DNA from: Chthoniobacterales bacterium
GTDB lineage: Bacteria; Verrucomicrobiota; Verrucomicrobiia; Chthoniobacterales; JAATET01
Assembly: GCA_036569045.1 (NCBI GenBank)
Contig: DATCRI010000007.1
Coordinates: 62,001-126,000 of the forward strand
Direction: 5' to 3'
DNA: 64,000 bases
The translations under genes and the position numbers were made by a program. Shown here one piece after another: positions 29,836 through 57,218 of this stretch. Positions within the stretch are counted from its first letter, which is position 1. Each line of letters starts with the position of its first letter. The notes under the pieces were generated by a model. It saw only the letters and a program-made list of their open reading frames with translations. It had not been told where the DNA came from and ran no database searches.

Positions 29836-32800
29836 CTAAAATGGCGATGTCGGCCCGGTGGAAGGCGGCGTGTCCCACTTCGGCACCTGCAGGGATGGAT
29901 CCCGCACGTCGCCTCGATTTGCCTGATTGAGCGCGTCGAGGATCTTCTGCAGGAGGTTCGTCACCCCCTCGCCACCGCCGGAATTGCCGCCGATCCCCGT
30001 CATGGAATCCACGCGGATCGAGTCGATCGCATTCCGGGCCTCTGCCTCGTTGGCACGCTTCACCTGGCCGCCGTTCCAGTCATCCGCAGTGACTGCCCTA
30101 CCGCCGGAGGAAGCCTGGCTACGATTACGCAGCCGTTCTCTCCGCGTTTCGCGACCTTCCGCTCGCGCCAGCTTCACCGCCTCTTCATTGGTGAGCCCTT
30201 GCCGCTTGAGCTCGAGAATACGCTGCTCGATCTGGAGTTGCTCCCGTAGCCGCGCGGCGCCTTCTTTGTTGCCTCGATTCTCCATTCCTGCTGCCCGCAA
30301 CTCGCCTTCCGCCTGGTGCTTTGTTCGCAACCCATCACGTCGCTGATTCGCGAGATCCGCATCGATGCCCGTGATCTCCGCACGGCGACCGCCAATCTCC
30401 GCGTCTATCCCGGCGACAGTTTTGCCCTCCGCGCCCGCAGCTTTGATCTTGTTCCGGTCACCGCTCTCGAGCGCCTTTCGCTGGTTTTGAAGGTCGGAAA
30501 CCTCGGTATTGATGGATTCCTTTCGCAGCGCCGCCTCCTTTACCGCGCGGTCGTAACCTTCCTCCTTCAATCCGGCAATCTGCCTTTCAATGTCGTAACG
30601 TCTCAACGTCAGCGCCGCCTCGCGCTCGGCGCTGGCGGATTCCGAGACGAGACTCGAAGCATTCGCCTTCTCGGTGACAATCTCATTACGCTTCGCTGAC
30701 ACCTTGTTCGCAAGTCCCTCCACCGTCTCGCCCTCCGCCCCCGTTGCAGCTTGCGCGGCTAGTGCCGTTTTTAAGGCCTCCCGCTTCTTGGCGTCGCCGG
30801 GATTCGCTGCCGCCTCCACCTGCGCCCGCCGCGTCTCCTCGACCGCACTCTTCTGCCTCTCAAGCGCCTCCAGCTCGCTGGAAAGCTGCGTTGCTCGAAT
30901 CTGGCTTTCCTCCCTCGCCCGCGCAATACCCTCCGATCGCAGCGCCGCGGTCTTTTGTTCCGCGTCGAGCCGTTTTGCCGCCGCGGCCTCATCGGCTTTC
31001 CGCGTGCTCTCCCGGTTCTCCGCCGTATCGAGCCCATCGAGCACATCCGTTCTCGCCACCGCGTTTTCCCTCATTTCCTGCGTCACCTGCGCCGGCGTCT
31101 TACCCAGAGCGCCTTCACGCGCCACATCGCGCTGCTTGATTACGAGATCGCGAGTGTCCGCAGGATTGTCCACGGCCGCCAATGCCTTCGCCTGCCGCCG
31201 CAGCCGCTCCTGCTCCTGGTCGAGTAATTCGAGTCGGATCTTCGCCTCTTCTCTCGCTCGCTCCACACCCTGCCCGCGCAAACCAGCGATCTTCTGCGCA
31301 GCCGCGACTTCCTGATCTGCGGCCCCCGACTCGGCCTTACCCTGGAGGTTTTCCAGCACGCCCGCGTCCCGTGCCCGCACGGCAGCCGCACTCTCCGTCG
31401 CCGCTCGCGACGGATCGTTCTCCACGCGCACTTGCTCGAGCCGCATCTGCGCCGCATTCTTCTCCTCCTCCGTAGCGCCGGAACCCGGCGCGGTCACTGC
31501 ACTCAACGCCGCCTGCGCCTGGTATTCCTCGCTCTTCCCCTGGTAGCCGGCAATGGCCGCATGGGCAGCGTCTCGTTGCGCGGCCGCGTTATCCACCACC
31601 GACTGCGCTGCCGCCACATCCGCCTGCTTTTGCCGCATAATGGCGGGATCCGGGTCCGCCCATTTCTGATACGCTGCAAGGTCCTTTTTCTTTGCTTCGA
31701 GATCGGGCGTTGCCGTCGCCAGCGTGTCGTTCGCCTGCGTCAACGCAGCCTCGCGCGGCTGCACTGCCAGTCGATCTTCCGCGAGCAACTGCGTCTGGGA
31801 ATCCGCCTTCGCCGAGGCAGCTTGCTTTTCCGCCGCCCGCTCCTCAAGAGCCTTCTGCTTCGCATCGCCCTTGAGATTGCCGATCACGGATTCCTGAACC
31901 TCGTTGCGAATCTGCCGCTCGAGTTCCAACCGCTCCTTCGCGAGGGACAGCCGTTTCTCGTCGAGAGCGACCGCCGCGCCCGCGCCAGATTCGACAGCCG
32001 CCTCGAGATTGGCGTTCGCGGTTTGAAGCTCGCCTTCCCGATCTTTCACCGCCTTGCCGGTATCCTTGAAGGGATTCTGGTTTTCCCGATCCTCCTTTTT
32101 GGCGGCATCCAGATTCGCCTGCGCATCCGCAACCCCTTTGTAGGCCGCGGCAAGCACTGCCGCGCGATCGGCCAACGTCCTCACATGCTCAATCTGGTCC
32201 TGGAGCTTTGCGTTTGACTGCTCCGTCGACCGCCGCATCTCGGACTGGCCTTTCGAATAATCCTGAGCCGACATCCACGCATCTCCACACGCCGCCGCCA
32301 CCGCCGTAAGTAACCCGATCGCCCATCCCACCGGCCCCATCGCCAGTTTTGTCGCGTTACCTAGCCAAAGAACGGAGCGCGCCAGAATCCCCATCGCCCC
32401 TGCCGCTGCCGAACTCGCCGTCGCCCAGCCCGTAATGGCCACAGCGAACTGGATCACGCCCTGGACAGCCATAAGCGCACTAAACACCGCCAGGGCGGTA
32501 ATAGCCACGCCGAGCGCACTCGTCACGGCGACCACGCCGGATCGCAGGCCGGGAATGGTCGACGCAAAAACGGAAACCGCCCCGGTCACCCGCTCCCACG
32601 CAGCATAAAAAAGCCCCACAACCTGGCTGGCCGACTTGAGAACCGGAGCAAGAGCCTCAGCCGACTTGATCTGTGATTCCAACCCGATCTTCGCCCCACC
32701 CTCAAATGCCTCTCCAACTTCTTGGTTGCTGCGTTCTTGCGTGCTCGACAGCTTCGCCTGGAGGCCCGCGATTTCATTCGCTGCCGTTTTCATCGCGCCA

Positions 32801-33474
32801 CTACTCCGCGCAAGATCGCCCTCGACCAATCGCCACATCGTCGAAAAATCGGCTCCACTCGCAGAAAGGATCGCGATCTGGCCGGCAGTGCTTTGCGACA
32901 CCGCCCCCATGTTCGCAAGCGCCTGGGCGGCATTGTCTGCCGGCCGACCATTTTGAAGGTTATCGTAGAGCGTGCCGACCGCCGCCGCCATGTCGCTAAA
33001 TGGCGCGCCGTTTCTCGCCGCTGCATCTCCCACCAGGTCCATACCCCGGCGCGTCGCCAACAGCCCTCCCGTGAGCACCTGCAAATTCCGCGCCCCCACG
33101 GCCGCATCGTCGAACGAAAACGGCGAGCGCTTTGCCCACTCTGCCGTCTCGCGCAGACGGCGGTTAGCGGCATCCAGCCCACCAAGCAACCCTTTGAGCT
33201 GATCCCGATAGAGCTGCATCTTCGCCAGGGATTCGAGCGACTTTCTCACCAACTCGCTCTGCCGAACAACATTGCCAAGGTTCAAGGCAAACCCCAACGC
33301 CGCTCCGCTCGCGAGAGCCAGCGGCCCCGCAAAGTCGTTCAGAATCTTGAGAAGAGTGCCACCCTTTGCCCTCGCCGCATCAAGCGCGTCACCCATTCGC
33401 GACAAACCCTCTGCCCCCTCCTTCACACTTTGCACTCCCGGACCATACTCCGGAAAGTCACCTCGATCGCTCAT
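29836..33474 (-). CDS. Phage tail tape-measure protein
   Basis: The 1212-aa protein has the tape-measure plan. The N-terminal domain (about 75-230) has AKRSPFSFDDAAVGARNLQVL and GTLYDNLQNGRPADNAAQAL. A strongly hydrophobic region with several membrane-like helices follows (about 285-400). After that come some 700 residues of Ala/Glu/Lys/Gln/Arg-rich coiled coil (about 420-1150; repeated AREE, AALR, GLRGQG-like units), and a short disordered tail. In phages this protein sets tail length and enters the cell envelope during DNA delivery. At roughly 0.15 nm per residue (a general rule) it would fit a tail near 180 nm. It is the last gene of the operon. No tail tube, assembly chaperone or tip gene is adjacent, which is very unusual. 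Confidence 0.82.
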   Translation of the reverse strand: MSDRGDFPEYGPGVQSVKEGAEGLSRMGDALDAARAKGGTLLKILNDFAGPLALASGAALGFALNLGNVVRQSELVRKSLESLAKMQLYRDQLKGLLGGLDAANRRLRETAEWAKRSPFSFDDAAVGARNLQVLTGGLLATRRGMDLVGDAAARNGAPFSDMAAAVGTLYDNLQNGRPADNAAQALANMGAVSQSTAGQIAILSASGADFSTMWRLVEGDLARSSGAMKTAANEIAGLQAKLSSTQERSNQEVGEAFEGGAKIGLESQIKSAEALAPVLKSASQVVGLFYAAWERVTGAVSVFASTIPGLRSGVVAVTSALGVAITALAVFSALMAVQGVIQFAVAITGWATASSAAAGAMGILARSVLWLGNATKLAMGPVGWAIGLLTAVAAACGDAWMSAQDYSKGQSEMRRSTEQSNAKLQDQIEHVRTLADRAAVLAAAYKGVADAQANLDAAKKEDRENQNPFKDTGKAVKDREGELQTANANLEAAVESGAGAAVALDEKRLSLAKERLELERQIRNEVQESVIGNLKGDAKQKALEERAAEKQAASAKADSQTQLLAEDRLAVQPREAALTQANDTLATATPDLEAKKKDLAAYQKWADPDPAIMRQKQADVAAAQSVVDNAAAQRDAAHAAIAGYQGKSEEYQAQAALSAVTAPGSGATEEEKNAAQMRLEQVRVENDPSRAATESAAAVRARDAGVLENLQGKAESGAADQEVAAAQKIAGLRGQGVERAREEAKIRLELLDQEQERLRRQAKALAAVDNPADTRDLVIKQRDVAREGALGKTPAQVTQEMRENAVARTDVLDGLDTAENRESTRKADEAAAAKRLDAEQKTAALRSEGIARAREESQIRATQLSSELEALERQKSAVEETRRAQVEAAANPGDAKKREALKTALAAQAATGAEGETVEGLANKVSAKRNEIVTEKANASSLVSESASAEREAALTLRRYDIERQIAGLKEEGYDRAVKEAALRKESINTEVSDLQNQRKALESGDRNKIKAAGAEGKTVAGIDAEIGGRRAEITGIDADLANQRRDGLRTKHQAEGELRAAGMENRGNKEGAARLREQLQIEQRILELKRQGLTNEEAVKLARAEGRETRRERLRNRSQASSGGRAVTADDWNGGQVKRANEAEARNAIDSIRVDSMTGIGGNSGGGEGVTNLLQKILDALNQANRGDVRDPSLQVPKWDTPPSTGPTSPF

Positions 33475-33477
33475 GGC

Positions 33478-44096: not shown

Positions 44097-44612
44097 TTAC
44101 TTCAGGGCCGCCACGGCGGCCTCGACTTCCTGCGCGTGGGTCTTCGTCTGGGCCTTCGGAAAATACTGCACGACCTTGCCGTCGCGGATGAGAAACGACT
44201 GCCGCTGCGCCATGCCAAGAGGAAGCGTCGGCACGCCGAAAGCGGCGATGACCTTCCCGTCGGCGTCCGCGATGAGCGTGAAAGGCAGATCGTATTTCGC
44301 CTTGAACGCCTTCTGTGCCTCGGGCTTGTCGTGACTCACGCCGATCACTTTCACGCCGACTTTCTTCAGGTCAACGATCCCGTCGCGCAGCGAGCAGGCC
44401 TGGGCGGTGCAACCCGGAGTCCCCGCCTTCGGATAAAAATAAACCAGCGTCAATCCCTTTGCCGTCGCCTCCGTCAGATTCACCGGCTGGCCGTTCTCAT
44501 CCGGCGCGGTCACGTCCGGCACGGCAGCCCCGACGGCAAGGGGCATGGCCCGGAGATTCATTCCAAAGAGGCTGGCAAAGATCATGGCAGGAAGGAGGAG
44601 GCGGCTTTTCAT
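44097..44612 (-). CDS. Exported peroxiredoxin (Bcp/PrxQ type)
   Basis: The 171-aa thiol peroxidase has an N-terminal signal peptide (MKSRLLLPAMIFASLFGMNL, likely cleaved near residue 22), so it acts in the periplasm, unlike cytoplasmic Bcp. The thioredoxin-fold core has FYPKAGTPGCTAQACSLRDG, with peroxidatic Cys near residue 70 and a resolving Cys five residues later (PrxQ type). VIGVSHDKPEAQKAFKAKYD follows. The gene is 72 nt from the tRNA-Lys 5' end and divergent from the lipoprotein gene. Confidence 0.9.
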   Translation of the reverse strand: MKSRLLLPAMIFASLFGMNLRAMPLAVGAAVPDVTAPDENGQPVNLTEATAKGLTLVYFYPKAGTPGCTAQACSLRDGIVDLKKVGVKVIGVSHDKPEAQKAFKAKYDLPFTLIADADGKVIAAFGVPTLPLGMAQRQSFLIRDGKVVQYFPKAQTKTHAQEVEAAVAALK

Positions 44613-44705
44613 GGTTATTCTGATACGGATGAAGTCATTCGGCGGAGCTTTATTCCCGGAGGAGCTTTGATATTTCTCGCATGCGACCTTACCGTGCGCA
44701 TCCCC

Positions 44706-45761
44706 ATGCGTCTGGTTCGCTCCTTTTTTCTGCCCATCGCGTTCGCCGCCGGCCTCGTCGGCTGCCGGCCGTCGCCGCCCGTGGATGCCCGTCTTGCCTC
44801 GCCGATCGAACTCGCGAAGGAAGCCGCGCCGCAGAAGCTCGAGCGCATCTTTGCCAACGCTCGCGCAAAGGCCCTGCTCGCCGGCCAGTCCCTCGCCTTC
44901 GCGCCGGAGCGTCCCGACGATGCCGCCGCGCTCCAGTCGCCTTCGACCTGGCGCCGCCTCGATCGCGCCGATCGCTTCGACGCCGTGCTGCTCGCTGGCC
45001 CCGCGGGAGAGTTCCAGCCGCTTCTCAGCCACCTCGTGACGTCGCCGGACTTCCGCCTCGTGCGCGTGGACAACTGGGGCGCGCTTTTCGTGCGAGGAAC
45101 GCCGGCGGCCTACACCCCGCCGCCGCCCGGATCGGTGGCGCGTGATCTTTCCGACGCCGATCGCGGCGCGTATCTCGCGCGAATGGCGCTCATGCTGCAG
45201 GCCGTCGATGAAGTCGCCGCTGCGAAGGCCTATTCTGCCGCCGCGCTGGATACCGCGCCGAAGGAGCCCATCGTGCATGTTGCGGCCGCCGCCCTCGCCC
45301 TGACGCGGAAGGATTACCAGCCGGCCCTCAAACAGGTCCAGCAGGCCCTCGCATTGAATCCCCACGACCTCGGCGCGCTCGAGATCGCCGCCCGCACGTT
45401 CACCGCCGCGGGTGCCGCGGATCAGGCCTGGGCTGTTGCCACGGAGTTGAAATCCCGCGCTCCGGCCGACGACATGAACGTCCTCTTCCTCCACGCCCGT
45501 CTCGCGAGCGCGGCCCACGCCTACAGCGCCGAGCAGGATTCCCTCGAGCGGCTCATCGCCCTCGCCGAGAAACAGAATCTCCCGACCGGCGACTACCGCG
45601 TTTATCTTGGCCAATGCTTTGCGCACCAGGGCCTGCCCCGTCCCGCCCTGGAGCAGCTCGAGCTCGCCGCGAAGGCCCCCAATCTCAGCGACCAGCAGCG
45701 CGCCGATCTCGACACCGCGATTTCCACCGTTCGCGAGCGGGCCGGGCAGCTCAGCCAATAA
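44706..45761 (+). CDS. TPR-containing lipoprotein
   Basis: The 351-aa protein starts at ATG 44706. The signal peptide ends in the lipobox GLVGC (Cys about 20), so it is lipid-anchored, probably in the outer membrane. A folded N-terminal domain (about 25-150) is followed by tetratricopeptide-like helices (DYQPALKQVQQALALNPHDLGALEIAARTF and after; about 160-340). TPR lipoproteins usually scaffold protein complexes. Nothing in the neighbourhood fixes its partner. Confidence 0.75.
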   Translation: MRLVRSFFLPIAFAAGLVGCRPSPPVDARLASPIELAKEAAPQKLERIFANARAKALLAGQSLAFAPERPDDAAALQSPSTWRRLDRADRFDAVLLAGPAGEFQPLLSHLVTSPDFRLVRVDNWGALFVRGTPAAYTPPPPGSVARDLSDADRGAYLARMALMLQAVDEVAAAKAYSAAALDTAPKEPIVHVAAAALALTRKDYQPALKQVQQALALNPHDLGALEIAARTFTAAGAADQAWAVATELKSRAPADDMNVLFLHARLASAAHAYSAEQDSLERLIALAEKQNLPTGDYRVYLGQCFAHQGLPRPALEQLELAAKAPNLSDQQRADLDTAISTVRERAGQLSQ

Positions 45762-45831
45762 TTTCGTTCGGCAATCCAGCGCTTCCCCTCCCCTCAAGGA
45801 GGCGCTAATTTCGCAACCCCTACACCTTTCT

Positions 45832-47532
45832 ATGAAGTCGAAAGCACCCGCCGCCAACATGCGCCCGCACTCCTCGATCGTCCTCGACGGGCCGCACCGC
45901 GCGCCCAGTCGCGCCATGCTCTACCCCGTCGGATTTACCGACAAGGACTTCGACAAGCCGCAGATCGCCGTCGCCTCCACCTGGAGCATGGTCACGCCTT
46001 GCAACATGCACATCGATCTCCTGGCCCGCGAGGCCGCCATGGGCATCGACGCCGCGAAGGGCAAGGCCACGATCTTCAACACCATCACGATCTCCGACGG
46101 CATCTCGATGGGCACCGAGGGCATGAAATACTCGCTCGTGTCTCGCGAAGTCATCGCCGACTCGATCGAGACCGTCGTCGGCTGCCAGGGCTACGACGGC
46201 TTCGTCGCCATCGGCGGCTGCGACAAGAACATGCCCGGCTGCATGATCGGCATCGCCCGCCTGAACCGCCCCGCAGTGTTCGTCTACGGCGGCACGATTC
46301 TTCCCGGCTGTCTCAACGGCCGCAACCTCGACGTCGTCTCGGTCTTCGAAGCCGTCGGCCAGCAGGCCGCGGGCAAGATCACCGACGGCGAGGCGCATGC
46401 GGTCGAGAGCTGCGCGATCCCCGGCCCGGGCTCCTGCGGCGGCATGTATACGGCAAACACGATGGCCTCCGCGATCGAGGCCATGGGCTTCAGCCTGCCG
46501 AACAGCTCCGCGCAGGCCGCCGTCTCGCAGCACAAGAAGGACGACTGCCGCAACGCCGGCGCCGCCGTCATCGAAATGCTCCGCCGCGGCATCAAGCCCT
46601 CCGACATTTTCTGCAAGGAGGCCTTCGAGAACGCCATCACGACCGTCATCGCCCTCGGCGGATCGACGAACGCCGTCCTCCACCTACTCGCCATCGCGCA
46701 CTCCGCGAACGTGAAGCTCTCGCTCGACGATTTCACGCGCATCGGCAAACGCGTCCCCGTGCTCGCAGACCTCAAGCCGAGCGGCAAATACCTGATGAGC
46801 CAGCTCGTCGAGATCGGCGGCATCGTTCCGCTCATGAAGGAACTCCTCGGCGCCGGCCTGCTCCACGGCGACTGCCTCACCGTCACCGGCAAGACGCTCA
46901 AGCAGAACCTCGCTCCCTTCAAACGCTACCCGAAAGGCCAGGACATCATCCTGCCGCTCAGCAAGCCGATCAAAAAGGAAAGCCACCTCGTCGTCCTGCG
47001 CGGCAACCTCGCTCCCGAGGGCGCCGTGGCCAAGATCAGCGGCAAGGAAGGCGAGAAATTCAGCGGCACCGCCCGCGTTTTCGAGTCCGAGGAAAAGGCG
47101 CTCGCCGCCGTGCTCGAAGGCAAGATCAAGGCCGGCAACGTCATCGTCATCCGCTACGAAGGGCCGCGCGGCGGTCCCGGCATGCGCGAGATGCTTTCGC
47201 CCACCAGCGCCGTCATGGGCGCGGGCCTCGGCAAATCCGTCGCCCTCATCACCGACGGCCGCTTCTCGGGCGGCACGCACGGCTTCGTCGTCGGCCACAT
47301 CACGCCCGAGGCCTTCGAAGGCGGCCCGCTCGCCATCGTGAAGAATGGCGACCCGATCACCATCGACGCCATCTCCCACGAGCTCACGCTCGACATCCCG
47401 GCCGCGGAGATCAAAGCCCGCCTTGCCGCGTGGAAAAAACCCAAGCCGCGCTACCGTCGCGGCGTGCTCGCCAAATATGCCTCGCACGTCACCACCGCCT
47501 CGCAGGGCGCGGTCACGGACGCCGGCTTCTAG
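45832..47532 (+). CDS. ilvD: Dihydroxy-acid dehydratase
   Basis: The 566-aa iron-sulfur dehydratase of valine/leucine/isoleucine synthesis converts 2,3-dihydroxy-acids to 2-keto acids. Conserved cluster Cys lie in TPCNMHIDLL, GGCDKNMPGCMIG and GPGSCGGMYTANTM. GRFSGGTHGFVVGHITPEA is the C-terminal signature. The ATG at 45832 lies 30 nt after an AAGGAGG tract, too far for a normal ribosome binding site. The NRPS-like gene starts 12 nt after its stop, so the two are likely co-transcribed. Confidence 0.95.
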   Translation: MKSKAPAANMRPHSSIVLDGPHRAPSRAMLYPVGFTDKDFDKPQIAVASTWSMVTPCNMHIDLLAREAAMGIDAAKGKATIFNTITISDGISMGTEGMKYSLVSREVIADSIETVVGCQGYDGFVAIGGCDKNMPGCMIGIARLNRPAVFVYGGTILPGCLNGRNLDVVSVFEAVGQQAAGKITDGEAHAVESCAIPGPGSCGGMYTANTMASAIEAMGFSLPNSSAQAAVSQHKKDDCRNAGAAVIEMLRRGIKPSDIFCKEAFENAITTVIALGGSTNAVLHLLAIAHSANVKLSLDDFTRIGKRVPVLADLKPSGKYLMSQLVEIGGIVPLMKELLGAGLLHGDCLTVTGKTLKQNLAPFKRYPKGQDIILPLSKPIKKESHLVVLRGNLAPEGAVAKISGKEGEKFSGTARVFESEEKALAAVLEGKIKAGNVIVIRYEGPRGGPGMREMLSPTSAVMGAGLGKSVALITDGRFSGGTHGFVVGHITPEAFEGGPLAIVKNGDPITIDAISHELTLDIPAAEIKARLAAWKKPKPRYRRGVLAKYASHVTTASQGAVTDAGF

Positions 47533-47544
47533 AACTCTTCCATC

Positions 47545-50500
47545 ATGCGCGATTCCCTCGTGCCGGTGCGTCGCCATCTCGAGATTTCGAGACAGCCCGC
47601 CGGCTCTCCATTCCACACCTCCCAGGTCTCGATCAGTTTCGGAGAGACCATCGAGGCCGGCGCGCTCCGTGCCGCCTGGGAGCTGATCGCCCAGGCCCAT
47701 CCGGCCCTCCGGCGGAAGTTCGACGCCGCCGGCGGAGTCACCGATACCGCGAATCCCGCCTTTGTCTGGAACGAACGCAACTGGCAGACCGGCGCCCCCG
47801 CCGACCTCGGCGCCGAGTGGCAGACGCTTGTCCAGACCGATGCCGCCACGCCCATCGCCGTCGGCGAGGAGCCCACCTGCCGCATCACCTTCATCGTCCT
47901 GCCGAACGGCCACGGCCACGCGCTGTGGTCCTTCCACGCCGCACTGCTCGACAACGACTCCATCTCCGCCGCTCTGCACCGCTGGCTGCACGCCTACGAT
48001 TGCCTGCGCACCGGCGCGGACGCTCCGGAATTCGAATCGTCTGCCGAATCCGCGGAGGCCGAAGCCGAACTCGCCACGCCCGAGGACTTCGTTCCGCCGC
48101 GCCCGCTCATCGTCCTTCCCCTGCCAGATCCGGCGATCACCGCCGGCACCCGCCGCTCCGTTTCGCAAACCTTCGAGCGCCCCGAGCGTCGGGAATTCGT
48201 CGCCGCCGCGAAGAAGCTCGGCGGCAGTCTCTCCGCGCTCTTCGGCTCCGCCTGGGCCTTCGTTCTCGCCCGCGCCACGTCTTCCGACGAAGCTCTCCTG
48301 CTCGAAACCTCGCGCCCGCCCGAGGGCCTCGGCCGCTTCGAGACTTTCACGCTCCGCCGCCGCCCGGTCGAATCCCACGCCACCGCCCGCGACCTCGTTC
48401 ACGCCTTCGCCGAGATTTCCGAGCTTCCGCTCCCGCCCGCCGACACCCTCGTCTCCGCCTACATCTTCCGCGAGCACACGCTCAACGACCGCCTCCAGCT
48501 CGAGGTGCCGCGCTGGATGGCCGCCGATACCCAGCTTTTCCAGAAAACCGCGCCACCGCTGGCGCTCCGCGTCGTCGCCTCCGATCGCCCCGAGGTCGCG
48601 CTGGATTACGATTCCGCCCTGCTCTCCGACGCCGCCGCCCGCACGCTTTTCGACGCCTTCCTCGGCACCCTCGCAGCCTTCGTCGCCGATCCCAGACTCG
48701 AGCTTGCCACCCTCGCCCTCCCCGGCACGCCCGCCGAGGTCGAGACGCCCGACGTCCCCGGCGCGTTCCGCTCTCTCGTCATTGTCCAGGGCATCCACGA
48801 AACTTTTGCCGACGCCGCCGCCGAGAGCCCCGACGCGATCGCCGTCGAGATGGACGAAGAGACCCTCACCTTCGCGCAGCTCAACAACTCCGCGAACCAG
48901 GTCGCCCGGCTTCTTCGCAAGCGGGGCGTGCAGGCCGGCGCTCGCATCGGCGTGGCCATGCCCCGCTCCCCGCGCTGGGTCGTCGCCCTGCTCGGCGCGC
49001 TCAAGGCCGGCGGTGTGATCGTGCCGCTGAGCCCCGAGACCGGCGAGGCCGACGTCGATGCATGGATCGTCGATGCATTGCCCGAAGGCGAGGCGCGTCC
49101 GAAGCCCGTCGTGCAGATGATCGCCGACGCCGGCGCGCTCTCGAACGAAAAGGCCCGCGGCGTCCAGACCGACGCGAAGGCCGATCCGCAGGCGCTCGTC
49201 GCCCTCGTCGACGGCAAGCCCCACACCTTCACGCACGAAGTTCTCGCCCGCGCCCTCCAAAGCCTCGCCGGGTTGCTCGCCCTCGAGCCCGCCGACCGCG
49301 TGCTGCAGTTCGCTCCCACCGGCACCTTCCCCGCCGTCGAGGAAACGCTCGCCTCGCTCCTGAGCGGCGCGACGCTCGTCCTGCGCTCCGGCGACCGCTG
49401 GCCCACCCGCACCGCATTCCAGGAATTCGTGCAGGAGAAGAACATCACCGCGCTCACGATCCCCGTCGCTTTCTGGACGCAGTGGACGCATTACCTCACC
49501 GAGCTGTCCCTCACGGTGCCCGCGTCGCTCCGACTCGCCGCCACCACCGGCAGCCTTGCCGCACCGAATGCCGTGCTCGCCTGGCGCGCCGTCGCGGGCT
49601 CCACGCACTGGCTGCACCGGGTCACGTCATCGGTCACCGGCGGCCTCGGTCTCGGCTCCGACTGGTCCGCGGAGGATTCTCTCGCCGCCTGCAGCCTTGG
49701 CCGGCCCACGCCGGCCGCCGTCGCCCGCATCGTGGATCGCCACGGTCTCGCCCTTCCGCTCGGCCTCGCCGGCACGGTCGAGGTCGCACCCGCCAGATCG
49801 CCGGACAAGCCCGCCACGCTCGGCATCGAGGCCTTTGTTTCACCCGAGGGCATTTTCTACGACCGCACCGCGTTGCAGGAACTCGTCGTCGGCCCCATCG
49901 GCCAGGGCGCGGCGGAGACCATCCGCCACGTCGCGATCACGCACCCCGGCGTGCTCGATGCCCATGTCGAGCAACGCCTCATCGCCGCCCGCCAGGAATG
50001 GTGCCTGTGGATTGTTCCCCGCGATTCCGAGCGCGGCGAACCGCACGACCTGCGCGAATGGCTTACGGCACGCCTGCCCGCCGCTCCGCGCCGCATCCGC
50101 GCGCTGCCTCGATTCCCGCTCGACGACGCCGGCAATCTCGACGTCGCCGCCCTCGTCGAGCAACTGCCCGACGACGTCGCTACCCCCGCCGCGCGCAAGG
50201 GCACCGAGGCCGAGGAACGCGTGCGTCAGGCCATCTCCCGCGCCCTCGGCGGCCGCCGCATCGAACTCGACGAAATCCTCACCGACGGCCGCACGAAACC
50301 CCAGGTCGCGAAACTTCTCTTCGAAGCCGTCTTGCGCGACGAACCCCGTGTCGAACTGGCCGATTTCACGACGGGCTTCTCCGTCCGCTCGCTCCTGCGT
50401 AACGTCCGTGGCCGTGGCCGCGCCGCCGGCACTCCCGCTGCCGCCGCTCCGGTCAGCGCCTGGACGCCGATCCAGCCGCTCCGCGCCTCGGGCAAACTCC

Positions 50501-51195
50501 CGCCCCTCGTTTTCATTCACGATTTCGACGGCACCTCGAAGGGCTACGCGCCGCTCGTCGCCCAGCTCGGGGAAGACCAGCCCTGCTACGCGATCACGGC
50601 CCGCGGCCTCGCCGATCCCGATGCCAGCCATGCCACCGTCGAGGAAATGGCCCGCGCCTACGTCGAGGCGCTCCGCGTTTTCGATGCCACCGGCCCTTAT
50701 CGCCTGCTCGGTTACGGCTTCGGCGGCCTTGTCGCCTTCGAGATGGCCCGCCAGCTCAGCGCCGCCGGCGCGAGCGTCCCGTTGCTCGTCGGTCTCGCCA
50801 CCGAGCCCCCCGCCACGAACTCCGCCGCCGCATTCCTCGCCGGCGGCTGGAAGCGCTCGCTCGCCTCGCTCCTCGGCCGCAAGACCGAGGAAACCCCGCG
50901 CCGCCGCCGCACGTCGGAGAGCCCGATCTCTCGCGTCAACGAAGAGGCCGCGCGCAAATACTCCCCGCCGGCGTCCGCCCTTGCCGCCCACATCTTCGTG
51001 CCCGAGCAGAATTTCCCGCCCTTCCGCGTTGTCGAGATCGGCTGGACGGCCACCTGCCGCGACGCGCAGTTCTATCAGGTGCCATGCAGTGGCCCGGAAA
51101 TGATGGACGAGCCCGCGGTCGAGGCCATTGCGAATGCGATCACGAAGCTTGCCCGCGCCGAGGAACTCGACACCGAGCTCGAGAACGAGGACTGA
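47545..51195 (+). CDS. NRPS-like C-A-PCP-TE pseudoenzyme
   Basis: The 1216-aa protein has the order of a complete nonribosomal peptide module, with every recognisable catalytic motif changed. The condensation domain (about 1-400) has HAALLDN where HHxxxDG is expected, so the catalytic His is Ala. The adenylation-like domain (about 415-870; starts IHETFADAAAESPDAIAVEM) lacks the TSGSTGxPK loop and the Lys near PRFPLDDAGNLD. The carrier-like region (about 890-960) has no phosphopantetheine Ser. The thioesterase domain (about 970-1216; PLVFIHDFDGTSKGYAPLV) has GYGFGG for GYSFGG, losing the nucleophile. The frame is intact, so the protein is likely maintained. A structural, regulatory or ligand-binding role is inferred; none is known. 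Confidence 0.82.
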   Translation: MRDSLVPVRRHLEISRQPAGSPFHTSQVSISFGETIEAGALRAAWELIAQAHPALRRKFDAAGGVTDTANPAFVWNERNWQTGAPADLGAEWQTLVQTDAATPIAVGEEPTCRITFIVLPNGHGHALWSFHAALLDNDSISAALHRWLHAYDCLRTGADAPEFESSAESAEAEAELATPEDFVPPRPLIVLPLPDPAITAGTRRSVSQTFERPERREFVAAAKKLGGSLSALFGSAWAFVLARATSSDEALLLETSRPPEGLGRFETFTLRRRPVESHATARDLVHAFAEISELPLPPADTLVSAYIFREHTLNDRLQLEVPRWMAADTQLFQKTAPPLALRVVASDRPEVALDYDSALLSDAAARTLFDAFLGTLAAFVADPRLELATLALPGTPAEVETPDVPGAFRSLVIVQGIHETFADAAAESPDAIAVEMDEETLTFAQLNNSANQVARLLRKRGVQAGARIGVAMPRSPRWVVALLGALKAGGVIVPLSPETGEADVDAWIVDALPEGEARPKPVVQMIADAGALSNEKARGVQTDAKADPQALVALVDGKPHTFTHEVLARALQSLAGLLALEPADRVLQFAPTGTFPAVEETLASLLSGATLVLRSGDRWPTRTAFQEFVQEKNITALTIPVAFWTQWTHYLTELSLTVPASLRLAATTGSLAAPNAVLAWRAVAGSTHWLHRVTSSVTGGLGLGSDWSAEDSLAACSLGRPTPAAVARIVDRHGLALPLGLAGTVEVAPARSPDKPATLGIEAFVSPEGIFYDRTALQELVVGPIGQGAAETIRHVAITHPGVLDAHVEQRLIAARQEWCLWIVPRDSERGEPHDLREWLTARLPAAPRRIRALPRFPLDDAGNLDVAALVEQLPDDVATPAARKGTEAEERVRQAISRALGGRRIELDEILTDGRTKPQVAKLLFEAVLRDEPRVELADFTTGFSVRSLLRNVRGRGRAAGTPAAAAPVSAWTPIQPLRASGKLPPLVFIHDFDGTSKGYAPLVAQLGEDQPCYAITARGLADPDASHATVEEMARAYVEALRVFDATGPYRLLGYGFGGLVAFEMARQLSAAGASVPLLVGLATEPPATNSAAAFLAGGWKRSLASLLGRKTEETPRRRRTSESPISRVNEEAARKYSPPASALAAHIFVPEQNFPPFRVVEIGWTATCRDAQFYQVPCSGPEMMDEPAVEAIANAITKLARAEELDTELENED

Positions 51196-51196
51196 T

Positions 51197-52027
51197 CTAC
51201 CGCCGCCACAGCGCGGGCAAAGCGAGCAGGAGCACCCGGCGCACGTCTCCGCGCGAAACCTTCACCGGCCCCGAGTCGATCTCGATGCGCGACAGCGTCT
51301 CGAGACCGATCCGCGCCGGCGGCAGACTCGCGAAGCGCACCCGCCCGTTCTCCACGGCTGCGGCCCATTGCAGGCCGCTCTCGAGGCCCACGCGGGCCCG
51401 TCGCTTCACGTCGATGAAGTCCGCGTCCGGCACGTAAACGCGCCCAATCGCCGCATCCGCCAGCCGGTCGCGCAGGATGTTCACGAGCTGCAGGCCCTTG
51501 CCGTAGGCCACCCCGAGCGCCACCAGCTCCTCGATCGGTCGATGCGTGAAATCCGGCAGCAGGTCCGCGCACAGCCGCGTCCAGAATTCACCGACGCTCC
51601 CGGCCACCAGGAACGTGTATTCCTCGAGCTCGTCCCCGTTCAAAGGCTCCGCCGATTCCGGAAAGCGCACGAGGTCGAAAAGCTGCCCGTGCAGGATATG
51701 GTTCCACACGCCCCACAGCCGCTCCTGCGCCCGCGATTCCTCCAGCGCATCGAGCAGCTCCGGCAGCCGACGCAACAACTCCGCCTCCGCCGGTTTCTCC
51801 TGATGCTTCACCAGCGCGCTCAGCGCATGGTGGGCGATGTCGCCATGGCGCAGCTGCTGAAGCGCTTCCACCCGCCGCTCCACCTCGGCCCCGGACGTAT
51901 CCGCAATGCTATCCGAGGCTCGCGCCAGCAGATAACCGAGGGCAATCGGCTCGCGCACCGCCGGCGGCAGCACGCGAATCGTGATGTAAAACGACCGCGA
52001 AACATCCCGCAGAAGCTTCCAGTTCAT
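51197..52027 (-). CDS. Squalene/phytoene synthase family protein
   Basis: The 276-aa head-to-head prenyl synthase starts SRSFYITIRVLPPAVREPIALGYLLAR. It has the first Asp-rich motif DSIAD (about residue 38) and the second in GLQLVNILRDRLADAAIGRVYVP. It would join two farnesyl or geranylgeranyl diphosphates to squalene or phytoene; the sequence alone does not decide which. Its ATG overlaps the stop of the DUF362 gene (TGATG), which places both in one operon. It converges on the NRPS-like gene with a 1-nt gap. Confidence 0.88.
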   Translation of the reverse strand: MNWKLLRDVSRSFYITIRVLPPAVREPIALGYLLARASDSIADTSGAEVERRVEALQQLRHGDIAHHALSALVKHQEKPAEAELLRRLPELLDALEESRAQERLWGVWNHILHGQLFDLVRFPESAEPLNGDELEEYTFLVAGSVGEFWTRLCADLLPDFTHRPIEELVALGVAYGKGLQLVNILRDRLADAAIGRVYVPDADFIDVKRRARVGLESGLQWAAAVENGRVRFASLPPARIGLETLSRIEIDSGPVKVSRGDVRRVLLLALPALWRR

Positions 52028-53115
52028 CAGCGCATCCCGGGCGTGTCCGCCCCCACCCGGATCAGATCGATCTCCGGCTCGAGAAAATTTCCCAGCCCCA
52101 TCGCGGACGCCGTCTCGACATGGGCGGCGACCGGCGCCGCCGGCGGCAGCTTGTTCGGCCCGCGATACTCGTCGATCAGCCGCAGGGCCGTCGCATCGAT
52201 CGCCACCGGATCGATGCTCGCATAGATCGTGAAATTCTGCCGCGTGAAATTGGGATTCGGAAACGGCCCGCCGGCGAACTGCAGCGCCAGCCCGTCCATG
52301 ATCGTCAGCACCACCTTGTCCCGCACCATCGCGTCCTTGTAGATCTCGCCGACGTAGGGATTCCCGTGATCCGGCTCGCGAATGAATCGTCGCCAGTTGT
52401 CCACATTCCACAGCGTCATGTTTGCCAGCGCGCCGTTCAACCCGCACATGAAGCTGTCGCACAGCGACGGCAGATTGATGACCTTCGTCACCCGCTGGCT
52501 CAGCACCGTCGCAAAAAAGCTCGTGCTGCTCAGCTGATCGCCCCTCGAAAGAATATCCTCCATGCGCGTGCCCTTTTTCTCACCGAACTTGCTGTCACCC
52601 CAGATCAATCTTCCCAGCACCGGCGCCGTCAGCATCGCCTGCCGGTCGTAGCCCGTCGAAGGATCGATCCCCTCCACGCGAAAATCCGGATCGCGTTCCG
52701 AAAACCCCGCCGCGCGCAGGTCCTCGATGTTCCGGTCCCACACGATGATGCGATCCGGTCGCACCCCCGCCGCCTGCAATCCGCGCGCCACCGCCCGCAC
52801 GACCGCCGGATGCGTCCCGCTCATCGCGCCCGGCGCCGCCGCGACCTTGATGCCCACGACGTCCGTCGGCTTCACCAGCGCCAGCCACGCCGCCGCGACC
52901 GAGGATCGCTTCGTCACCGCCATCACCACATCGTCCACCATCTTCTGCACGACCGCCGGCGTGGGGGTGAAGCCGTTCGTGAGCGCCCGCGGATCCGCCG
53001 CGTAATATACCTGCGACCGGGCGGCAATCGCCCGCGCTACGGGCGTCTCCTCCGCCAGCTGCGCCCCCACAACCAGCGGCCAGAGCGCGAACAGAAAGAC
53101 GAAACGACGGATCAC
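52027..53115 (-). CDS. DUF362 domain protein, exported
   Basis: A 362-aa product from a GTG at 53115, giving a signal peptide (VIRRFVFLFALWPLVVGAQ). The body matches the DUF362 family (VGIKVAAAPGAMSGTHPAVVRAVARGL, KVINLPSLCDSFMCGLNGAL, PVAIDATALRLIDEYR). Members are often encoded beside iron-sulfur or quinone proteins; their activity is not established. Here it is coupled to a prenyl synthase gene and divergent from hemW across about 70 bp. Confidence 0.82.
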   Translation of the reverse strand: MIRRFVFLFALWPLVVGAQLAEETPVARAIAARSQVYYAADPRALTNGFTPTPAVVQKMVDDVVMAVTKRSSVAAAWLALVKPTDVVGIKVAAAPGAMSGTHPAVVRAVARGLQAAGVRPDRIIVWDRNIEDLRAAGFSERDPDFRVEGIDPSTGYDRQAMLTAPVLGRLIWGDSKFGEKKGTRMEDILSRGDQLSSTSFFATVLSQRVTKVINLPSLCDSFMCGLNGALANMTLWNVDNWRRFIREPDHGNPYVGEIYKDAMVRDKVVLTIMDGLALQFAGGPFPNPNFTRQNFTIYASIDPVAIDATALRLIDEYRGPNKLPPAAPVAAHVETASAMGLGNFLEPEIDLIRVGADTPGMR

Positions 53116-55329: not shown

Positions 55330-56100
55330 TCAGACGTAGCGCAGATCGGCTTCGCCGCTCACGTTCACGAAACCATGCTTGCGCAGGAGCGTCGCGAAGA
55401 GCGCGATCGCCTGCTTCTCCTCGGCGCCCAGATCGAAGCGAATGAACTCGGAAAGATACCGGCGCACGAAGGCCGGGTCGGGATACTCCGCCGCGATGCG
55501 CTCCCGCTCGGCGAGCCCGCGAACCTTCGTATCCCGCAACGCGTCCGCGAGCGCGGCGGCAGCAGGCAGTTCCGGCCGGAAAACCCAGCACGCAAAAACG
55601 AAAGGCAGACCGGTGCAACGCATCCACTCCGCGCCGAGATCGAAGAACTCCCAGCCGTCCGCGGCGTGCGTCTGCCGGAACTTCACCGCGGCGTCCCCGA
55701 TGAGCAAGCGGGCGCCGAGTTCGTCCGCCGGAGCGTCGAGATAAGCGGGCTCGAAGTCATAAAACTCGGCAAGCAGGCATTGCAGCAGGTGATTCGACGT
55801 GTGGGAGGCGGGGTCGAGCGCGATCGTTTCCTGGGCCGTGAGCGGTCCCCGATGAGCGACGTAGACGCTGAAAACCGCACCGCACGCGGCGATGGCGATG
55901 CCGTCGGCAATCGTCGCAGACGGCCGCTCCACCGCCTCGTAGACCGGCACGAGCGCGGCATCCAGCTCACCCGCGGCGAAGCGCTCGGCGAGACGCGACG
56001 GGAGATCGAGCGAGACGCGATCCTCGAGACCGGCAATGAGCGGTCGCGCGTTGAGATAGGGCACCGAGCCGATCCGGCGACCGGCAAAAGCGTCGCTCAC
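55330..56100 (-). CDS. mqnA: Chorismate dehydratase (futalosine pathway)
   Basis: The 256-aa MqnA-type protein starts at GTG 56100. It has the family start RRIGSVPYLNARPLIAGL, the periplasmic-binding-protein fold with ALVPVYEAVERP, and LLIGDAAVKFRQT. It dehydrates chorismate to 3-enolpyruvylbenzoate, the first step of futalosine menaquinone synthesis. GTGA overlap with the mqnE stop shows translational coupling with mqnE. Confidence 0.92.
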   Translation of the reverse strand: MSDAFAGRRIGSVPYLNARPLIAGLEDRVSLDLPSRLAERFAAGELDAALVPVYEAVERPSATIADGIAIAACGAVFSVYVAHRGPLTAQETIALDPASHTSNHLLQCLLAEFYDFEPAYLDAPADELGARLLIGDAAVKFRQTHAADGWEFFDLGAEWMRCTGLPFVFACWVFRPELPAAAALADALRDTKVRGLAERERIAAEYPDPAFVRRYLSEFIRFDLGAEEKQAIALFATLLRKHGFVNVSGEADLRYV

Positions 56101-57218
56101 GCCGCCTGCAACTCCGTCGGCGAAGGCAGGCGCTCGTAGAACGTATTCCGCTGCATCGGCTCGCGCCCGGCCTCGCGAATCGCCTTCTCCATCGCGTAGA
56201 TCGTCTGCAGCTGCGGCGTCGTCGCGCCGGCCATGTGAAAGATCTTCTCCTCGCGGATCGTGCCGTGCAGATCGTCCACGCCGTAGTTCAGCGCGAGCTG
56301 CGCGAGCGGCAGTCCGAGGCTGATCCAATACGCCGTGATGTGCGGAAAATTATCGAGGTAGATGCGGCTCACCGCGAGGTTGCGCAGCTCCTCGAAGCCC
56401 GTCGCGTGCGGGATGTCCTTCAGCGAGGGACGGGCGCCGTCCGGCTCGAACGCAAACGGAACGAACGCCGTGAAGCCGCCGGTCTCGTCCTGCAGTTCGC
56501 GCAGGCGCCGCAGGTGATCGACGCGATGCCGCGTCTGCTCGATGTGGCCGTAGAGCATCGTGCACGTGCTTTTTCCGCCCATCTGATGCCAGGTGCGATG
56601 CACCTCGGCCCATTCGTCGGCGGTTTCCTTGCCGCGGCAGATCTGGTCGCGAATCTCCGGATCGAAGATCTCCGCGCCGCCGCCGGTGATGGCGCCGAGG
56701 CCGTTCTCGCGCAGCAACTCGAGCGTTTCGCGGATCGAAAGCTTGAAGACGCGCTCGGCGAGATGGCGAATTTCCACGGCGGTGAACGCCTTGATGTGCA
56801 GCGCGGGGTCGAGCGCCTTCAGCGCGCGCAGCAACTCGAGATACCACTCGCCGGGCAGCGTGGGATGCAGGCCGCCGACCATGTGAATCTCGGTGATGCC
56901 TTCGGCGAGACCTTCCTTCACGTTGGCCTCGATCTCGGGGATCGCCAGCTCGAAGGCATGCGCCTCGCGCTTCTTCGCGCCGAATGCGCAAAACTGGCAC
57001 GAGAGGATGCAGACGTTCGAGTAGTTGATGTAGCGATTGTGAATGTAGGTCGCGACATTCCCGTTCTTGCGCTCGCGAATGATGTTCGCGATCGCGCCGA
57101 TGCCGTTCACGTCGTGGCTCTCGTAGAGCACGGTCGCATCCGCGTCGGAGATGCGTTCACCCGACGCCACCTTCTCGTGAATGGGCAGCAGCTCGGGAGA
57201 CAACAGGCGGAGATTCAT
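56097..57218 (-). CDS. mqnE: Aminofutalosine synthase, radical SAM
   Basis: The 373-aa radical SAM enzyme has the Fe-S motif CILSCQFCAF (about residues 69-77) after NRYINYSNV, followed by GITEIHMVGGLHPTLPGEWY and LGAITGGGAEIF. This matches aminofutalosine synthase (MqnE), which joins the MqnA product to S-adenosylmethionine. The related MqnC was considered, but the YINYSNVC and GGGAEIF context fits MqnE better. It is the first gene of the mqnE-mqnA pair. Confidence 0.9.
   Translation of the reverse strand: MNLRLLSPELLPIHEKVASGERISDADATVLYESHDVNGIGAIANIIRERKNGNVATYIHNRYINYSNVCILSCQFCAFGAKKREAHAFELAIPEIEANVKEGLAEGITEIHMVGGLHPTLPGEWYLELLRALKALDPALHIKAFTAVEIRHLAERVFKLSIRETLELLRENGLGAITGGGAEIFDPEIRDQICRGKETADEWAEVHRTWHQMGGKSTCTMLYGHIEQTRHRVDHLRRLRELQDETGGFTAFVPFAFEPDGARPSLKDIPHATGFEELRNLAVSRIYLDNFPHITAYWISLGLPLAQLALNYGVDDLHGTIREEKIFHMAGATTPQLQTIYAMEKAIREAGREPMQRNTFYERLPSPTELQAA

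Follow-up and report, generated by a model that had tools for sequence, protein, structure and literature searches.

A stand-alone NRPS termination module without catalytic motifs, conserved and usually placed behind ilvD in Chthoniobacterales

Results

The locus and the domains of the encoded protein

The window (the whole stretch of 64,000 nucleotides that was analysed) carries an intact frame for a protein of 1216 amino acids that has the domain order of a single-module termination NRPS, with a degenerate carrier (Table 1). The frame starts 12 nt past the stop codon of ilvD, in agreement with the preliminary description, which had called the two genes co-linear. A search of the protein against Pfam returned AMP-binding (1.1e-33) and Thioesterase (2.1e-19), with Condensation below the threshold and no match for the PP-binding (carrier) domain.

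Table 1. Features of the pseudoenzyme locus in window coordinates.
Feature	Position	Strand	Remarks
Peroxiredoxin (AhpC/TSA) gene	44097..44615	-	Part of the ancestral locus
TPR-like lipoprotein gene	44685..45761	+	Upstream of ilvD; conserved neighbourhood
ilvD (dihydroxy-acid dehydratase)	about 45832..47532	+	Conserved neighbour in families f1, f2 and f7
NRPS-derived pseudoenzyme, 1216 aa (C-A-degenerate T-TE)	47545..51195	+	Pfam, motif alignment, dN/dS, tree, AF2
Condensation-like domain, residues 1-395	47545..48729	+	Ala132 in place of the catalytic second His; block QVSISFGE (27-34) specific to the family
Adenylation core, residues 410-780	48772..49884	+	Without A3 P-loop or A5
Reduced A-sub domain, residues 781-875	49885..50169	+	A8 and A10 Lys gone
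Degenerate carrier (PCP) remnant, residues 886-962	50200..50430	+	Ser replaced by Thr in LTDGRT
Thioesterase (alpha/beta-hydrolase) domain, residues 975-1205	50467..51159	+	Ser replaced by Gly1058; His gone

The catalytic motifs were judged by aligning the window protein and its homologues with intact NRPSs. The HHxxxDG motif of the condensation domain reads FHAALLDN, in which His131 and Asp136 are retained and the catalytic second His is lost. In the adenylation domain the A3 P-loop is absent, A5, A7 and A8 are either deleted or occupied by other sequence, and PLDDAGNLD stands where the A10 Lys would be expected. The carrier motif LGGHS has become LTDGRT, and GxSxG of the thioesterase has become GYGFG. 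The four losses proposed from the sequence alone (condensation His to Ala, no adenylation P-loop, no carrier Ser, thioesterase Ser to Gly) are all borne out by the alignment. The protein keeps the folds and the domain order of a functional NRPS and lacks the catalytic residues of its condensation, adenylation, carrier and thioesterase domains.

The preliminary description also drew on a 3.65-kb frame free of stops. The frame is indeed uninterrupted; however, this is a weak argument for a gene in DNA of 70% GC, where the pseudoenzyme gene is overlapped by a spurious frame of still greater length (45762-50399, 1546 codons). The status of the gene rests instead on its conservation, its codon-position bias and its dN/dS. 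A further open frame of 1213 codons (window 29839-33477, minus strand) has no Pfam match at 1e-5 and may be spurious antisense or an uncharacterised protein.

Distribution and origin of the family

We label families within the order Chthoniobacterales by f-numbers and genomes by G-numbers. When 213 genomes of the order were searched with a profile, about 33 proved to carry a full-length or fragmented homologue (4/4 in f1, 2/2 in f2, 4/4 in f8 and 23/26 in f7), and none was found in the remaining families; two of the three f7 genomes without a homologue are only 64-71% complete, and a few copies are split between contigs. Three other genomes of the window's genus carry the gene without stops at 61-67% identity, and full-length homologues in the other families are about 19-30% identical. 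The hosts are soil, freshwater and nematode-symbiont bacteria. The gene is retained in two genomes of 0.9 Mb, one of which is Ca. Xiphinematobacter (G010, f8); the Ca. Xiphinematobacter genome CP012665 measures 915,884 bp (PMC4607532).

The motif-less family was not found outside the order in samples of 384 genomes of the class and 387 of the phylum. The best matches there reach at most 490 bits, compared with the 776-1524 bits that most full-length members score with their best piece, and wherever they were read they are NRPSs with intact motifs. The division was no different in the named GTDB collection, which was also scanned: the motif-less copies are all from records of Verrucomicrobia, Spartobacteria or Chthoniobacterales, nearly all other candidates have intact motifs, and the window's relatives go under the names of Terrimicrobiaceae, Chthoniobacterales and Verrucomicrobiaceae MAGs.

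In the 29 full-length copies that were read, no adenylation, carrier or thioesterase site is intact. The thioesterase Ser is replaced by Gly in 29/29 dead sequences, a residue found there in 0/12 intact NRPSs. Nearly all homologues lack the second His of HHxxxDG (one f2 copy retains the HH pair without the Gly), and the old catalytic position drifts among A, T, S, P, K, G, Q, R and H. The window's genus alone has a clearly recognisable remnant of the carrier; in the other families this part is shortened or deleted. The preliminary description had named orthologues with intact motifs at shifted positions as an outcome that would speak against it; in the homologues of the four families, no intact adenylation, carrier or thioesterase motif was found at a shifted position. 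GHSDG strings in f7 were considered as a candidate thioesterase motif and rejected, as they are located in the adenylation domain.

In the maximum-likelihood tree a branch with 100/100 support separates the 29 dead sequences from 10 intact NRPSs, which suggests a single origin: most likely the module became noncatalytic once, in the ancestor of the four Chthoniobacterales families. The best-scoring homologue outside the order, a single-module C-A-T-TE NRPS from another order of the class (G381, L062:5925-9836), shares with the dead family an SFPxLLLDG-like sequence at the condensation site. It differs in having an intact adenylation domain, intact carrier (AGGDS) and thioesterase (GWCYG) sites and no ilvD upstream, and it lies on the opposite side of the supported branch.

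Selection and predicted structure

By the simple Nei-Gojobori method, with dS near saturation in several pairs, close f7 pairs gave a dN/dS of 0.07-0.13, a slightly wider pair 0.06 and the pair from the Xiphinematobacter endosymbionts 0.18. Most pairs from the window's genus gave about 0.30, and one gave 0.55 with a poorly estimated dS. The values for ilvD in the same pairs are lower than those for the pseudoenzyme. Taken by domain (where there were enough sites), the condensation, adenylation, A-sub and thioesterase domains remain below 0.4 in every group. The most constrained domain in the window's genus is the carrier remnant (dN/dS 0.22), though it can no longer be loaded. The low values in close pairs argue against neutral, pseudogene-like evolution, the other outcome named beforehand as adverse, and together with the loss of the motifs they support the proposal that selection acts on the fold and not on the chemistry. 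The family shows homology to enzymes, loss of the catalytic residues throughout and purifying selection, as a family of pseudoenzymes does.

The conserved substitute residues that the preliminary description proposed to look for are present. Besides the thioesterase Gly, two glycines (G700 and G702) occupy the former place of the A5 motif YGPTE and hardly vary, or do not vary at all, among the 29 dead sequences, and the N-terminal QVSISFGE block is conserved. S29, G33, W75, W92, P120, H125, P322, W324 and D328 in the condensation-like domain, as well as D510 and W680, are invariant in the dead sequences and uncommon in intact NRPSs.

The AlphaFold2 model of the window protein (pLDDT 78.7) has confident condensation, adenylation and thioesterase folds; the carrier remnant scored low. 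The model of an f7 relative without a carrier (pLDDT 83.1) likewise shows confident C, A and TE folds. With VIA-align, the adenylation domain of the window model gave a Z of 44.4 and an rmsd of 2.1 over 366 aligned residues, and its C-A portion matched McyB with a Z of 42 and an rmsd of 5.3 over 814 residues. In a Foldseek search the window model aligned to whole termination modules, SrfA-C (2vsq), AB3403 (4zxh) and EntF (5ja1), whose domain order and folds resemble its own. In these three modules HHxxxDG, the P-loop, the carrier Ser and the thioesterase triad are intact; the dead family has none of them in intact form.

Neighbourhood and linkage to ilvD

Three families (f1, f2 and f7) show the linkage to ilvD. 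In 24/25 copies outside f8 the pseudoenzyme starts 7-93 nt behind the ilvD stop on the same strand; in the 25th, ilvD is broken. The f8 genomes keep both genes apart from each other, which indicates that the linkage is not required. The peroxiredoxin gene still adjoins the pseudoenzyme in the f8 genomes G026 and G034, so it was ilvD and the TPR gene that departed from the locus. When the position behind ilvD was inspected in f3-f6 and f10-f13, the gene was absent. Families f12 and f13 have closely related ilvD genes without it, in most cases in the TPR-ilvD context, and the ilvD tree is compatible with either loss or original absence of the pseudoenzyme in these two families.

Downstream in the window, a squalene/phytoene synthase gene (51200-52030) adjoins a gene for a DUF362 protein (52033-53100, minus strand), a pair that is retained downstream in the window's genus and in several f7 genomes. 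Menaquinone genes of the futalosine pathway (VitK2_biosynth and a CofH/MqnC-type radical SAM protein) lie at 55333-57218 on the minus strand.

No other gene with a condensation domain was found in G000, G010, G019 and G026, which include the window's genome and both 0.9-Mb genomes. The pseudoenzyme therefore serves no NRPS pathway in those genomes.

Discussion

A protein of full size whose active sites are gone, which has long been kept and which is usually encoded behind ilvD, is probably a binding or scaffolding protein. We favour, with a probability of about 0.7, a noncatalytic pseudoenzyme derived from a single-module termination NRPS (C-A-T-TE) and kept for its shape. An ancestral termination module would have lost its chemistry, most likely once, in the ancestor of the four families, and the dead module would then have been retained. 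The protein may work by binding, as a scaffold, a docking protein or a regulator, by analogy with isolated dead condensation domains. Two such domains are cited in passages of PMC8795117: C1 of VibF, a noncatalytic condensation domain that dimerises, and the X-domain of glycopeptide NRPSs, a noncatalytic condensation fold that recruits oxygenases. Both resemble the family in having a dead condensation fold, theirs being used for protein-protein contact. However, each is one dead domain in a working assembly line, whereas the dead family consists of whole stand-alone modules, and G000, G010, G019 and G026 have no active NRPS assembly line. Our search of the literature on NRPS pseudoenzymes, inactive adenylation scaffolds and NRPSs of Chthoniobacterales returned nothing on the dead family and no report of a whole NRPS module turned pseudoenzyme and conserved across bacterial families; the main text of two Xiphinematobacter genome papers does not mention NRPSs (PMC7857533, PMC4607532).

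What such a protein binds can be suggested only tentatively. In view of the linkage to ilvD and the retention in endosymbionts with a proposed role in essential amino-acid supply, a partner or target would be sought first in branched-chain amino-acid synthesis, with IlvD as the leading candidate. Dihydroxy-acid dehydratase is an oxygen-sensitive Fe-S enzyme, and a dedicated partner might hold, stabilise or regulate it, or group the branched-chain enzymes into a complex. The position directly behind ilvD in three families favours such a partner, as does the retention of the gene in Xiphinematobacter endosymbionts, whose proposed role is the supply of essential amino acids (PMC7857533). Every pseudoenzyme-bearing genome that was read also has ilvD, but ilvD is widespread, so this co-occurrence is weak evidence. 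The separation of the two genes in f8 and the closely related ilvD genes of f12 and f13 that lack the pseudoenzyme speak against a dedicated partner, and the linkage could reflect shared promoter use alone. On balance we regard a dedicated IlvD partner as possible but doubtful.

Alternatively, the emptied adenylation and condensation pockets may bind an amino acid, a keto acid or a nucleotide and signal its level. The pocket-bearing folds are retained and constrained, and family-specific residues lie in the N-lobe of the condensation domain and at the old A5 site. However, the loss of the ATP loop and of the A10 Lys makes canonical binding of amino acids or AMP unlikely, and few of the conserved residues are polar; we consider a ligand sensor unlikely. 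Still less probable is that the protein remains an enzyme with remodelled active sites. Four residues that the family conserves (H125, D510, R1020 and D805) are seldom seen at the corresponding columns of intact NRPSs, but most of the conserved positions specific to the family hold Gly, Trp, Pro or Leu, a pattern that suits binding or structure more than a new catalytic activity, and the old catalytic position of the condensation domain drifts freely. A decaying pseudogene or a spurious frame, which the loss of all motifs and the other long open frames of this GC-rich region might suggest, is already refuted by intact frames in four families at about 23-30% identity, by dN/dS well below 1 and by retention in 0.9-Mb genomes.

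Dead single NRPS domains have been described before; our literature search gave no earlier report of a whole dead module that is conserved across families and retained where no nonribosomal peptides are made. Such genes will probably be labelled as NRPSs by annotation pipelines and be counted towards the biosynthetic capacity of their hosts. The family offers a clean natural test of what the NRPS fold can do without its chemistry, and it suggests that the core metabolism of soil and freshwater Verrucomicrobiota and of their endosymbionts has a component not yet described. It is conceivable, though we consider it rather unlikely, that branched-chain amino-acid synthesis has acquired, from a whole NRPS module, a noncatalytic regulator or scaffold dedicated to it. 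If this were the case, the converted module would be important enough to survive genome reduction to 0.9 Mb in a nematode endosymbiont.
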